40,616 nt of DNA from a virus, in the IMG/VR virus record IMGVR_UViG_3300042453_003974, positions 1 through 40,616 of that record; one strand, 5' to 3'. The notes beneath the pieces are model-generated. The model ran no database searches. It was not told the origin of the DNA and was given only the letters and a program-made list of their open reading frames with translations. Shown here one piece after another: positions 2,021 through 33,112 of this stretch. Positions within the stretch are counted from its first letter, which is position 1. Each line of letters opens with the position of its first letter. The translations under genes and the position numbers were made by a program.

Positions 2021-2050
2021 CGTATATACATTCCCCATGCCACGCTTCAA
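2021..2050 (-). promoter_or_regulatory. Promoter of leftward operon with overlapping operator
   Basis: On the minus strand TTGAAG (2050-2045) is separated by 16 bases from TATATA (2028-2023), a good sigma-70-type match, upstream of the gene starting at 1977. The -10 element sits inside TGTATATACG (2030-2021), which is identical to one copy of the ten-site array at 2738-2940. A protein bound to that array would therefore be expected to block this promoter. The promoter is inferred from sequence alone. Confidence 0.6.
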
Positions 2051-2224: not shown

Positions 2225-2432
2225 CGTCTTGGGAAGGCAAAAAGCCCAATGATTTCGCGTTTTTAACCCATGTTGCCCAAGTTCCCATAGGATTTGGCCA
2301 AACCTCCCGGGCTGCAAAAGCTCTGTATATACTGAGCTTTTTCTGATTCCCAGACTCTCCTGCTTTCAATGGGAACTTGGGCAACATGGGTTAAAAACGC
2401 GAAATCATTGGGCTTTTTGCCTTCCCAAGACG
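2225..2432. repeat. Perfect 64-bp inverted repeat with 80-bp centre
   Basis: Bases 2225-2288 are the exact reverse complement of 2369-2432, without a single mismatch that I can find. The 80-bp centre (2289-2368) holds a second palindrome with AAAAGCTC arms around TGTATATACT. The arms include AAAAAGCCCAAT and TTAACCC, motifs that recur in the direct repeats just to the right. No convincing gene lies here. Possible roles are a large cruciform, a single-strand initiation hairpin for replication, an invertible segment, or protection of a transcript. Confidence 0.95.
2316..2341. promoter_or_regulatory. Operator-like palindrome in the centre of the inverted repeat
   Basis: Eight-base arms AAAAGCTC and GAGCTTTT flank TGTATATACT. 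The core GTATATAC is shared with the ten-copy array, the leftward promoter and the rightward promoter, so this is probably another binding site for the same protein, located in the loop of the large inverted repeat. Confidence 0.55.
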
Positions 2433-2737: not shown

Positions 2738-2940
2738 TGTATATACACTAATATTCTGTATATACAAAACAATCAATTTGTATATACAAAACGAATACTT
2801 TGTATATACAAATTGATTGTTTTGTATATACAAAAGTATTATTTGTATATACGAAACAATTGTTTTGTATATACAAATTGATTGTTTTGTATATACAAAA
2901 GTATTCTTTGTATATACAGAATATTCGTTTTGTGTATACA
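2738..2940. promoter_or_regulatory. Array of ten TGTATATACA operators
   Basis: The 10-bp palindrome TGTATATACA occurs at 2738, 2757, 2779, 2801, 2823, 2866, 2888 and 2909, with one-base variants at 2844 (ends in G) and 2931 (TGTGTATACA). Start-to-start distances are 19, 22, 22, 22, 21, 22, 22, 21 and 22, that is, about two helical turns, so all sites face the same side of DNA. Spacers are AT-rich and partly mirror one another (CAATCAATTT, AATTGATTG). The array stops 16 bases before the -35 of the rightward promoter. RHH-family repressors and centromere-binding proteins bind such regularly phased short palindromes; an RHH protein is encoded at 3055-3465. Confidence 0.9.
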
Positions 2941-2955
2941 AACCGTGCGCGGGCG

Positions 2956-2984
2956 TTGACAAAGGGGGTTTTTCCGTATATACC
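2956..2984 (+). promoter_or_regulatory. Rightward promoter for the RHH-terminase operon
   Basis: TTGACA (2956-2961) is a perfect -35 hexamer, separated by 17 bases from TATACC (2979-2984). The -10 lies in CCGTATATACCGG, which carries the same GTATATAC core as the operator array. Transcription would start near 2991 and enter the RHH gene at 3055. This is the best promoter-like sequence on the plus strand and probably serves at least the terminase genes. Confidence 0.7.
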
Positions 2985-2995
2985 GGAGCTGCTTT

Positions 2996-3014
2996 TGTCT
3001 ATACGGTATAGACA
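2996..3014. promoter_or_regulatory. 19-bp palindromic operator downstream of the promoter
   Basis: TGTCTATACGGTATAGACA is a complete 9-bp-arm palindrome around one central base, placed at or just after the expected transcription start. Its outer bases (TGT...ACA) match those of the array sites. It fits an operator for autorepression of the downstream RHH gene. Confidence 0.65.
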
Positions 3015-3054: not shown

Positions 3055-3465
3055 ATGAAGGAAGCGAAGACGACCAGCATCCTGTTCCGCGTGTCCGCAC
3101 GAGAGCACGAGGAGTTTCGCCGGGTTGCGGCAGCGCGCGGCACGACGATGTCGAAGGTGCTTTCGGAGGCGATGTCCAGGTTCTGCAGCGAATCCGGGAA
3201 GTCGCCAGCGGTGGACGAGCTGAAGTCTCAGGGTCTTCCAAACAGCGTACAACTTGGGAGACTTGGGAAAGAATTCGAAGAGGCCGCGCAGACTGCCACG
3301 CCCTTTGCTCGCGAGGCCCTCGCCGCCGCCGTGCGGGCGCAGCTTGCCTTCGGTGAGGAAGACCTCGCCCTGCGCGTCGTCGAGCACTTGCAGGAGACGA
3401 CTCCAGAGGACAAGCTCTCGGAGGTGGACCCGGTGTGCTCGGTCCTCTTGAAGGAGTCTGCATGA
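3055..3465 (+). CDS. Ribbon-helix-helix DNA-binding protein
   Basis: A 136-residue protein. Residues 5-13 (KTTSILFRV) form the beta strand, 15-29 the first helix and 31-43 (TMSKVLSEAMSRF) the second helix of an RHH/CopG-Arc-type domain. The remaining 90 residues are helical and acidic, perhaps for oligomerisation. RHH dimers insert the strand into the major groove of short palindromes, and this gene sits directly behind ten phased palindromes, a promoter and a 19-bp operator. I infer that it binds these sites, as autorepressor and regulator of both divergent operons. Alternatives are a ParR-like segregation protein or a packaging-site binder, because terminase genes follow. ATG 3055 has AAGGGG upstream, and the stop overlaps the next gene by ATGA. 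Confidence 0.75.
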   Translation: MKEAKTTSILFRVSAREHEEFRRVAAARGTTMSKVLSEAMSRFCSESGKSPAVDELKSQGLPNSVQLGRLGKEFEEAAQTATPFAREALAAAVRAQLAFGEEDLALRVVEHLQETTPEDKLSEVDPVCSVLLKESA

Positions 3466-3908
3466 GCCTGCTGTCGCGCCAGGGTCACTTCGTCGTCATC
3501 CGCGACTCCGAAGGGAAGGTGGTGTCGAAGGTGATGGAGGGGAAGTCCACGAAGGACACCTTTCGGCGCGTACTGCGGAAGCTGTCCAACGACGGGCTCG
3601 ACTACGCGATGGCACTCGACGAGATTGCCAGGGGCAAGCCGTTTCAGGTCGAGCTGCCTGACGGGCGCGTGAGCGACCCGCAGGTGGCTCCTCTGGGCGT
3701 GCGTGCCGACGTGCTGAAGTTCCTCTGGGAGCAGATGCATGGTAAGGCAGTGGACCAGACCAAGGTCGTCGAGGCCGAGGTCGCTGCGGAGGATGCCGAG
3801 CGGTACCGCAGCATGACCGAGGAACAGCTACGACGACTCGTGGCGGAGGACGAGGAAGATGCCCAGCTCGTTGCGGGAACTCATCAGCCTACGCCTGATG
3901 ACCGATGA
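3462..3908 (+). CDS. Putative small terminase subunit
   Basis: A 148-residue protein. The central segment (VRADVLKFLWEQMHGKAVDQTKVVEAE) resembles the 'R-A-x-x-L-W-hGK' region of small terminase-like phage proteins that recognise the packaging site and hand DNA to TerL. The C-terminal third is a highly charged helix. It is four genes before the end of a short operon leading into TerL (RHH, this gene, GNAT, small ORF, TerL), which supports the role. The start ATG 3462 has AAGGAG seven bases upstream and shares ATGA with the RHH stop. The family call rests on a weak motif plus position; it could instead be another DNA-binding early protein. Confidence 0.45.
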   Translation: MSLLSRQGHFVVIRDSEGKVVSKVMEGKSTKDTFRRVLRKLSNDGLDYAMALDEIARGKPFQVELPDGRVSDPQVAPLGVRADVLKFLWEQMHGKAVDQTKVVEAEVAAEDAERYRSMTEEQLRRLVAEDEEDAQLVAGTHQPTPDDR

Positions 3909-4278
3909 CGACCGGCGCTTCGTCGCCTCGTCCTGGTTTGAGAGCTTCTGGAAGAACAGCGAGCGGCACCGTGGGATTGCCTTCTCGGTGTACCGCCCGC
4001 ACATGGACACGCGCATCAACCGCCTGCTCGATGCCGGCGAGACGCTCATCGTTCACGCCGCGCACATCCCCGACGAGATTCTCGGCTACGTCGTTTTCGA
4101 TGTGGACCGGGAGGCGATTCACTGGTGCTACGTCAAGTCCGCGTACCGAGGAGAGGGAATCGCGACGGCCCTCTGCAAAGGGCGCGGGAAGTGGTATACA
4201 CACGCTGCCGGCGATGCCGGTACGAGGCTCGCGAGGACGTTGGGCTTTGAGTTCAACCCGTACCTGAGTGAGAGGTAG
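3859..4278 (+). CDS. GNAT-fold N-acetyltransferase
   Basis: A 139-residue protein. EILGYVVFDVD is the core strand, and WCYVKSAYRGEGIATALC carries the acetyl-CoA-binding motif A (R/Q-x-x-G-x-G/A), a clear GNAT signature. The C-terminus (TRLARTLGFEFNPY) matches the family's last strand. GNAT genes sit next to the terminase in several podovirus lineages, where the substrate is unknown; it may acetylate a host or virion protein. It overlaps the preceding gene by 50 bases if ATG 3859 (GAGGAAG upstream) is used. ATG 3898 is an alternative start that reduces the overlap to 11 bases. Confidence 0.75.
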   Translation: MPSSLRELISLRLMTDDDRRFVASSWFESFWKNSERHRGIAFSVYRPHMDTRINRLLDAGETLIVHAAHIPDEILGYVVFDVDREAIHWCYVKSAYRGEGIATALCKGRGKWYTHAAGDAGTRLARTLGFEFNPYLSER

Positions 4279-6219: not shown

Positions 6220-8193
6220 ATGCCACGCGACTACCGTGACGCCAAGGTCTACAAGAACAGCACGGAGGCGCGGAAGGACAAGGCTGCGTCGTCCTACGTC
6301 GAGTCTCGCTGGTGGCAGGAGACGGACCCGGAGACGAGGTCCAGTGCGCTCATCAAGATGGCGACCGCTCTGGAGGACAACAGCGTCGAGCGGCATCAGG
6401 CGAACCTTCGTCACGCGCGGCTCTACGAAAACGTGGAGCTGGACACGCTGACCGGCGTCGACTACGCGCAGGCTCTCATTCGGCAGGCGCTCTACGGCAC
6501 CGGCATCGTGCGGCTGAACGTCATCGCCGCGTGCATCGACACGCTGGCTGCGAAGATTGCCAAGAACAAGCCACGCCCGAACTTCATCACGAGCGGCGGA
6601 AGCTGGAACATGCAGCGCAAGGCGCGGGCGCTCGACAAGTTCATGCGCGGGCTGTTCTACGAGACGCAGGTCCACAACAAGGCGCAGCAGGTCTTCGTCG
6701 ATTCGTGCGAGTTTGGCACCGGGATGCTGCACGTCTACCTCAACGACGACGGGCGGCTCGACTGCGAGCGAGTCGTCCCTGACGAAATCTACGTCGATGA
6801 CGCTGACGCGATGTACGACGCACCTCGCTCGCTCTTCAGGAAGAAGCGAGTGTCGCGCGAGGTGCTTTCCGCGATGTTCCCCTCGTGCGTCGATGACATC
6901 TACCAGTCGGATGAGTCGGTGGATGAGGCAAGCTCTCTCGTCTCCAAGGACGCGCGCACGCCGTCCGTTGACGTCTGGGAGGCGTGGCACCTGCCGTCGA
7001 AGCTGGGCGCGAAGGACGGGCTGCACTGCATCACCATTGATGGCAAGGAGCTGTTCTGCGAGCGGTGGAACCTGGACTGCTTCCCGTTCGTGAAGCTGCG
7101 GTTCAAGCGACGCACGCTGGGGTTCTGGGGTAAGGGTGTTGCCGAGACGCTCACTGGCATTCAGGTCGAGCTGAACAGGCTCGTCCTGTCGGTGAGCGAG
7201 CAGCTTCGCCGCAAGGGCAAGGGGCGAATCTTCGTGCAGATGGGCTCCAAGCTCAACCCGAACCACATGACGAACGGCATCGGGGACATCGTCTACTACA
7301 CGGGCGCGCCCCCGGTCGTTGACAGCCAGAACGCGGTCGCGCCGGAAGAGTTCATGCAGATTGACCGGCTCTACCAGAAGGCGTTTCAGGAGGTCGGCAT
7401 CAGCGAGCTGTCCGCTGCGGCGAAGAAGCCCAGCGGGCTCGACGCGGCGGTCGCGCTGCGCGAGTACAGCGACATCGAGAGCGAGCGGTTCGCTCTCGTC
7501 CATCAGGCTTGGGAGCAGTTCTTCCTCGACTACGCCGCGCTGTGTCTGAAGCTCATCAGCAAGCAGTACGGGGATAAGGGGTACCGCATTCGCATGCCGT
7601 CGAAGCGGTACGTCATCGAGGTCGATTGGAAGGACATCAACCTCGACGAAGACTCGTACATCATGCAGATGTTCCCGACGTCGAGCCTCCCGCAGACCCC
7701 TGCCGCGCGCTACGCGAAGGTGAAGGAGATGCGACAGGACGGGTTCATCTCGGATGCCGTGGCGAAGCGGCTGCTGGAGTTCCCTGACATCGAGGCTGAG
7801 ATGAGCCTCGGCAACGCGGCAATCGACGATGCAGATGCGGTCATCTCTGCGGTGCTCGACAACGAGAAGCCAGAGATGCTCCCCATCGAGCCGTACGAGG
7901 ACTTGGAACTCATCATCGAGCGCGCCACCGCCTCGTACCTGTTTGCTCGGCACTTCAAGGACATCGAGCCCGAGCGGCTGGACATGCTCCGCCAGCTCAT
8001 CGACAACGCGGCGGCGATGCTCGCCCCGCCTCCTGCGGCGATGTCCGCTGGCCCCGGCATGCCCGCTGGCCCTGAGATGCCGATGCCCACCCCGCCGCCC
8101 GCACCCGGAGGCGGTATGGCGGCGAATGTCGGAAACGTGAACATCAATGCAGCGCCCCCAGTAGCACCCGTTACGCCACCAGTGATTGCGTAA
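6220..8193 (+). CDS. Portal (head-tail connector) protein
   Basis: A 657-residue protein expected to form the dodecameric portal ring at the special vertex. Its length is slightly above the podovirus norm, and it has the typical order: N-terminal charged helices, a wing region with many Trp/Tyr, the segment GVAETLTGIQVELNRLVLSVSEQLRR corresponding to the stem-helix region, and a long helical C-terminal crown. The last 60 residues are Pro/Ala/Met/Gly-rich and disordered. It lies between TerL and scaffold, as in most tailed phages. ATG 6220 has AAGGAGT six bases upstream. The identification rests on position, size and helix pattern. Confidence 0.85.
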   Translation: MPRDYRDAKVYKNSTEARKDKAASSYVESRWWQETDPETRSSALIKMATALEDNSVERHQANLRHARLYENVELDTLTGVDYAQALIRQALYGTGIVRLNVIAACIDTLAAKIAKNKPRPNFITSGGSWNMQRKARALDKFMRGLFYETQVHNKAQQVFVDSCEFGTGMLHVYLNDDGRLDCERVVPDEIYVDDADAMYDAPRSLFRKKRVSREVLSAMFPSCVDDIYQSDESVDEASSLVSKDARTPSVDVWEAWHLPSKLGAKDGLHCITIDGKELFCERWNLDCFPFVKLRFKRRTLGFWGKGVAETLTGIQVELNRLVLSVSEQLRRKGKGRIFVQMGSKLNPNHMTNGIGDIVYYTGAPPVVDSQNAVAPEEFMQIDRLYQKAFQEVGISELSAAAKKPSGLDAAVALREYSDIESERFALVHQAWEQFFLDYAALCLKLISKQYGDKGYRIRMPSKRYVIEVDWKDINLDEDSYIMQMFPTSSLPQTPAARYAKVKEMRQDGFISDAVAKRLLEFPDIEAEMSLGNAAIDDADAVISAVLDNEKPEMLPIEPYEDLELIIERATASYLFARHFKDIEPERLDMLRQLIDNAAAMLAPPPAAMSAGPGMPAGPEMPMPTPPPAPGGGMAANVGNVNINAAPPVAPVTPPVIA

Positions 8194-32421: not shown

Positions 32422-33112
<691 letters not shown>

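Follow-up and report, generated by a model that had tools for sequence, protein, structure and literature searches.

Ten palindromes upstream of an RHH gene in a 40.6-kb phage genome: a probable multi-site operator of an autorepressor

Background

RelB of E. coli is an RHH autorepressor that binds hexads of the form [A/T]TGT[A/C]A, arranged in TTGTAATTACAA; in its operator, relO, the inverted hexads lie at the operon's own promoter and are bound cooperatively (PMC2812701). The phage locus described here, an array of TGTATATACA palindromes that precedes the gene of the RHH protein P0001, resembles this system, but relO consists of two contiguous 12-bp half-sites that tolerate no spacing, whereas the array comprises ten palindromes about 22 bp apart, and next to P0001 no gene for a RelE-type toxin was recognised. 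In the case of MazE6, the RHH operator lies on a -10 element (PMC9477884). The BrnA/CopG_antitoxin operons (PF12441) of plasmids and prophages likewise encode an RHH protein, with an exact TGTATATACA upstream in 6 of 7 plasmid loci examined, and in the L078 group the sites precede a two-gene operon; these loci differ from the array in carrying one or two sites and in their toxin-antitoxin gene order.

Two viral systems are also comparable. The Arc-like repressor operon of Cheoctovirus (Ovechkin gp73-71) encodes a phage RHH protein and has two near-matching palindromes between divergent genes, but these are only two and the RHH gene is the third in the operon. The archaeal virus RHH regulators SvtR and AvtR likewise target viral promoters, through operators of other sequence and with few sites; nucleation on distal sites and oligomerisation into promoters have been proposed for viral RHH proteins, including SvtR (PMC5569661). 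Finally, in the type II partition loci the operon of the RHH protein ParR is preceded by the phased repeats of parC (PMC5016525), which are, unlike the sites of the array, tandem repeats of about 10 bp, each bound by one ParR dimer; moreover, no motor gene was found in the phage.

Results and discussion

The array and the surrounding control region

The window analysed here is a whole IMG/VR virus record of 40.6 kb. Its plus strand carries the genes for terminase (P0005), portal, capsid and lysis proteins, and its minus strand those for primase/helicase, exonuclease and DNA polymerase. The leftward and rightward operons are separated by a non-coding stretch of about 1 kb, which includes the array. 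The contig ends (1-127 and 40518-40616) consist of a 13-bp tandem repeat, GCGGGTCGCGCTG, and share an identical overlap of 92 bases, therefore the record may be circular, or else an assembly broken at the repeat. No integrase was found in this phage. Two further repeats were observed elsewhere in the genome: a (GGTTTG)n tract (1150-1210), telomere-like and with some 10 copies, at the upstream end of a minus-strand gene of the GP88 family, and a 264-bp CGGCGGCGG-rich repeat (32747-33010) with ORFs on both strands.

The motif search identified ten unstranded 10-bp palindromes TGTATATACA at 2738-2940, with starts at 2738, 2757, 2779, 2801, 2823, 2844, 2866, 2888, 2909 and 2931; eight are exact and two have one mismatch (TGTATATACG at 2844 and TGTGTATACA at 2931). 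The start-to-start steps are 19, 22, 22, 22, 21, 22, 22, 21 and 22 bp (mean 21.7 bp), with spacers of 9-12 nt, which bears out the preliminary description of ten palindromes, eight of them exact, at steps of 19-22 bp before an RHH-like gene. With up to two mismatches allowed, TGTATATACA occurs 19 times in the window against 1.67 +/- 1.39 expected, and 0 shuffles reached 19; the array is not a product of chance. The phasing proposed earlier holds in that the steps approximate two helical turns (2.06 turns at 10.5 bp/turn), but it is not exact, since at this period the sites drift by about half a turn across the array; among the periods tried, 10.75 fits best. The region is AT-rich (82% at 2801-2900) in an otherwise GC-rich genome. 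The Rfam search over the array and the neighboring inverted repeat returned only sub-threshold miRNA models on hairpin-like DNA, which were discarded, and terminator scores over the array were likewise rejected, as they stem from the palindromes and involve few G-C pairs.

Only 2 of the 100 palindrome bases in the array deviate, while the spacers vary more, and the conserved unit is wider than 10 bp (approximately TTTGTATATACAAA). The spacers form two related families, each present in both orientations (spacers 4 and 7, for example, both match the reverse complement of spacer 2 exactly), and a higher-order period of 65 bp is apparent, which shows that the array expanded through duplications, some of them with inversion, with the palindromes staying fixed. 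It is nonetheless scarcely credible that the array is merely a non-regulatory tandem repeat expanded by slippage or recombination, given its near-invariant palindromes among differing spacers, the variant sites at both candidate promoters (see below) and the occurrence of the same motif at unrelated RHH operons.

Variant TGTATATACA-type sites flank the array at 2021, 2203, 2324, 2975, 2996 and 3005. Reading of the sequence revealed a candidate rightward promoter (TTGACA-15-TATATA, 2956..2982, plus strand), whose -10-like hexamer is enclosed by the variant site CGTATATACC (2975-2984). Between this promoter and the start of the RHH gene, two variant sites form an unstranded 19-bp dyad, TGTCTATAC-G-GTATAGACA (2996..3014). 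On the other side, the unstranded site CGTATATACA (2021..2030) lies in the -10-like region of a candidate leftward promoter (TTGAAG-16-TATATA, minus strand); the site precedes the minus-strand ORF 1708-1977 by 44 bp. Both candidate promoters are below consensus grade according to the consensus scan, which omitted the 2956..2982 candidate because of its non-standard spacer and -10 element.

The control region contains other repeats as well. A 64-bp inverted repeat with perfectly matching arms (2225-2288 and 2369-2432) may belong to an origin or act as a bidirectional terminator. Its 80-nt loop contains a 26-bp dyad, AAAAGCTC-TGTATATACT-GAGCTTTT, with the unstranded variant site TGTATATACT (2324..2333) in the middle. 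At 2477-2672 there are iteron-like repeats of about 50 bp, each with an imperfect AACCC...GGGTT dyad and a GTGACCGGTCGGTCGC palindrome. A blastn search of the flanking control region against annotated phages gave no match.

The RHH protein P0001

The proposed array binder, P0001 (3055..3465, plus strand, 136 aa), is an RHH-type DNA-binding protein. Its N-terminal RHH domain (residues 4-46; TTSILFRVS followed by two helices) is joined to a C-terminal region that is also helical. The search of public libraries yielded a weak hit only, to the PHROG 'Arc-like repressor' (E=0.008), and there was no match to the Pfam RHH families, to ParR, to PF12441 or, with the single sequence, to the PDB; of the families with which the preliminary description proposed to compare this gene, Arc received a weak indication and ParR none. 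A profile built without P0001, from eleven RHH proteins encoded by viruses, confidently identified P0001 (E=6e-8) and matched no other ORF of the window significantly, which places P0001 in the RHH superfamily (Arc/MetJ/CopG); the members of this profile were found near the palindrome elsewhere, some of them initially through a profile that contained P0001. The arginine of the N-terminal beta strand (R12) is nearly invariant among the twelve proteins (the eleven and P0001). Solved structures matched by the site-associated RHH profile include AvtR (among the best matches, E=5e-6), ORF56, NikA, MazE7 and ParG. The AlphaFold model of P0001 itself is poor (pLDDT 56) and places helices at 15-28 and 32-48; its quality is insufficient for a fold search. 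No homologues of P0001 were found in the viral, phage and plasmid collections searched.

The next gene encodes P0002 (3462-3908), which matches no Pfam family and no strong PHROG family. Its homologue is kept in relatives that lack the RHH gene, which argues against P0001 and P0002 being a toxin-antitoxin pair.

Association of the palindrome with RHH genes in other elements

Pairs of TGTATATACA spaced by 9-13 nt were found at 44 viral loci, and pairs of TGATATATCA, a palindrome chosen as matched control, at 6. Several of the tight TGTATATACA pairs stand at the 5' end of RHH-type ORFs. All ORFs were scored with a five-sequence RHH profile that included P0001, and all matches with E<0.01 in the tight-pair set lie within 603 bp of the pair. 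An RHH gene is present within 700 bp of the tight pair in 9/26 independent loci, some of which were found with a profile that contained P0001, compared to 0/43 for TGATATATCA (Fisher p=5e-5); the association persists when the profile seeds are removed (5/22 loci, p=0.003). Matches to Pfam RHH families exceed the cut-off at L015, L034 and L108, and fall below it at several other loci. At L015, L020, L021, L022, L023, L041, L047, L052, L108 and in the L078 group, the sites coincide with the start of the operon or precede it; at L034 and L057 they are downstream of the RHH gene. For pairs spaced by 14-44 nt, an RHH gene is near in 3/65 loci and far in 3; the association is therefore mainly with tight spacing, apart from the toxin-antitoxin-like L078 group. 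Many viral TGTATATACA clusters have no RHH gene nearby. Among them are L026 and its relatives. In these myovirus-like contigs, TGTATATACA pairs with a spacing of 11-12 nt are flanked by terminase-like genes on one side and tail-sheath-like genes on the other, and an RHH gene was not seen; the pairs are probably hairpins.

A protein search in annotated phages identified an RHH homologue in the mycobacteriophage Ovechkin, while none was found for the RHH protein of L052. The prediction that sites should be present at the RHH operon of Ovechkin held at the sequence level: CGTATATACG and TGTATGTACA lie just in front of it, at a distance of 12 bp from each other. DLane, Kenuha5 and DillTech15 have near-matching sites, and Inventum and StAnnes have neither the RHH operon nor the sites, their homology stopping near the sites. 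Of the seven plasmid BrnA/CopG-antitoxin loci compared, those from Klebsiella, Salmonella, Neisseria, Acinetobacter, Pasteurella and Moraxella, six in all, have an exact TGTATATACA ahead of the antitoxin gene; the Psychrobacter locus has none. Taken at the sequence level, these comparisons point to TGTATATACA as a recurring operator common to RHH proteins that have diverged strongly, those of phages as well as those of toxin-antitoxin operons. Among the papers listed, in a search that covered few subscription journals, none relevant linked TGTATATACA or GTATATAC to RHH proteins.

Rarity of the array and comparison with relatives

No other viral contig was found to carry three exact TGTATATACA sites 10-13 nt apart, in a scan from which the record of the window was possibly absent. 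Among 11.3 million genome contigs, 3 have three exact sites at 8-14 nt: L057, where they are beside an RHH-like ORF, L058, where the region is origin-like, and L059, where they follow a relaxase-like gene. In L058 (Oligoflexia, 6600-7140) there are nine TGTATATACA-type sites, most of them interleaved with DnaA-box-like TTATCCACA repeats near rnpA- and yidC-like genes, and this region is probably a chromosomal oriC. In L059 (Lachnospiraceae, 3389-4123) 26 exact or one-mismatch TGTATATACA sites follow immediately on the relaxase-like gene and precede the gene of a Phd-like antitoxin; an RHH gene was not seen at this cluster. The blastn search for array-like DNA in annotated phages revealed only non-significant AT-rich matches.

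No relatives were detected via the VapE helicase. Four relatives whose terminase is 60% identical (L005-L008) keep P0002, the GNAT protein, P0004 and the terminase in order. In the three whose contigs extend upstream of the P0002 homologue (L005, L007 and L008), neither an array nor an RHH gene precedes it; the intergenic region contains a different repeated palindrome there, approximately TGACGC-N3-GCGTTA, of which the window has a single degenerate copy (TTGACGCAGCGCATTA) at about 2448. The joint absence fits an exchange of gene and operator as a unit, although it amounts to one presence against one absence. No relative with both a P0001-type gene and a comparable array was found in the collections searched, and none of those examined keeps the RHH gene without the array, a combination that would have spoken against the gene and the array belonging together. 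The same relatives retain the downstream gene order and lack the array, and the earlier suggestion that the array marks the start of packaging was rejected on these grounds.

Proposed function of the array

Taken together, the hexads bound by RelB, the action of MazE6 on a -10 element and the proposed spreading of viral RHH proteins lead us to interpret the array as probably a multi-site cooperative autorepressor operator for P0001 (3055-3465). Operator-like sites extend over 2738-3014, at the protein's own promoter, and the RHH gene starts at 3055. The core TTGTATATACAA is present in five of the ten sites and differs from the perfect RelB half-site in the two central bases of 12. By analogy with RelB on its half-site, P0001 dimers may bind the TTGTATATACAA palindromes, probably one per inverted half, i.e. 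two dimers per palindrome; binding of the palindromes by the RHH protein, the central idea of the preliminary description, is well supported by the comparison of RHH operons, phages and plasmids and by the profile match. Neighboring complexes, about two helical turns apart, would bind cooperatively, and P0001 would assemble along the AT-rich array toward the promoter, where it could occupy the weaker variant sites, i.e. the one at 2975 over the -10-like region and the dyad at 2996-3014. P0001 would thereby repress its own operon, which runs on into the genes for GNAT, terminase and structural proteins. The variant site at 2021, in the leftward -10-like region, suggests that the divergent operon may be controlled as well; of the dual repression envisaged earlier, the part concerning the own operon fits the positions of the sites, and the leftward part is possible. 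Ten strong sites would be expected to make the switch steep and to titrate much P0001, thus imposing a delay or a threshold.

Perhaps P0001 and the array form an extended nucleoprotein filament or ring with a role beyond repression, by which switching between the operons for replication (leftward) and structure (rightward) is tied to origin activity or genome copy number, each new copy of the array titrating the repressor; we regard this extension as unlikely. Nor do we favor the view that the whole 2.0-3.05 kb region is the replication origin of the phage, with the 50-bp repeats serving as initiator iterons, the AT-rich array as the unwinding element and the RHH protein in an auxiliary or competing role. 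The base composition of the array, the adjoining inverted repeat (2225-2432) and GTGACCGGTCGGTCGC repeats, the primase/helicase and DNA polymerase encoded in the leftward module and the palindromes among DnaA-box-like repeats in Oligoflexia all agree with such a function. However, the cumulative GC skew (a measure confounded here by gene strand) has no extremum near 2.7 kb, with its minimum at 35.6 kb and its maximum at 24.0 kb, and across unrelated elements the palindrome tracks RHH operons and not origins, which makes the origin a rather unlikely alternative to the autorepressor operator.

The array could also be bound by another regulator, a host factor or a different phage protein, the RHH gene being merely adjacent. 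This would agree with the TGTATATACA clusters that have no RHH gene nearby, e.g. in the myovirus-like contigs and beside the relaxase-like gene, but P0001 is the sole phage ORF that matches the RHH group repeatedly accompanying the palindrome, and the phage has no strong HTH_3 repressor (one sub-threshold match of 21 residues was detected); hence, we consider it improbable. Still less can be said for a centromere-like partition or nucleoprotein-ring site of the ParR/parC kind acting in extrachromosomal segregation of the phage, as envisaged in the preliminary description. The RHH domain with a helical C-terminal region and the repeated, roughly phased upstream sites do resemble type II par loci, but there is no ParA-type ATPase in the phage (PF13614, controls positive) and no match to actin-like ParM-type motors (PF17989 and PF06406, with controls weak or silent), the RHH gene is followed by an operon that continues to GNAT and terminase, and the palindromes recur at 22 bp and not as 10-bp tandem iterons; together with the missing ParR match of P0001, this leaves partition very improbable.

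Implications

If TGTATATACA is a recurring RHH operator, the operators of small phage regulators that are hard to annotate would become predictable from sequence. The ten-site array may then serve as an extreme case for measuring how the number of operators relates to the steepness of the switch and to the titration of the repressor.
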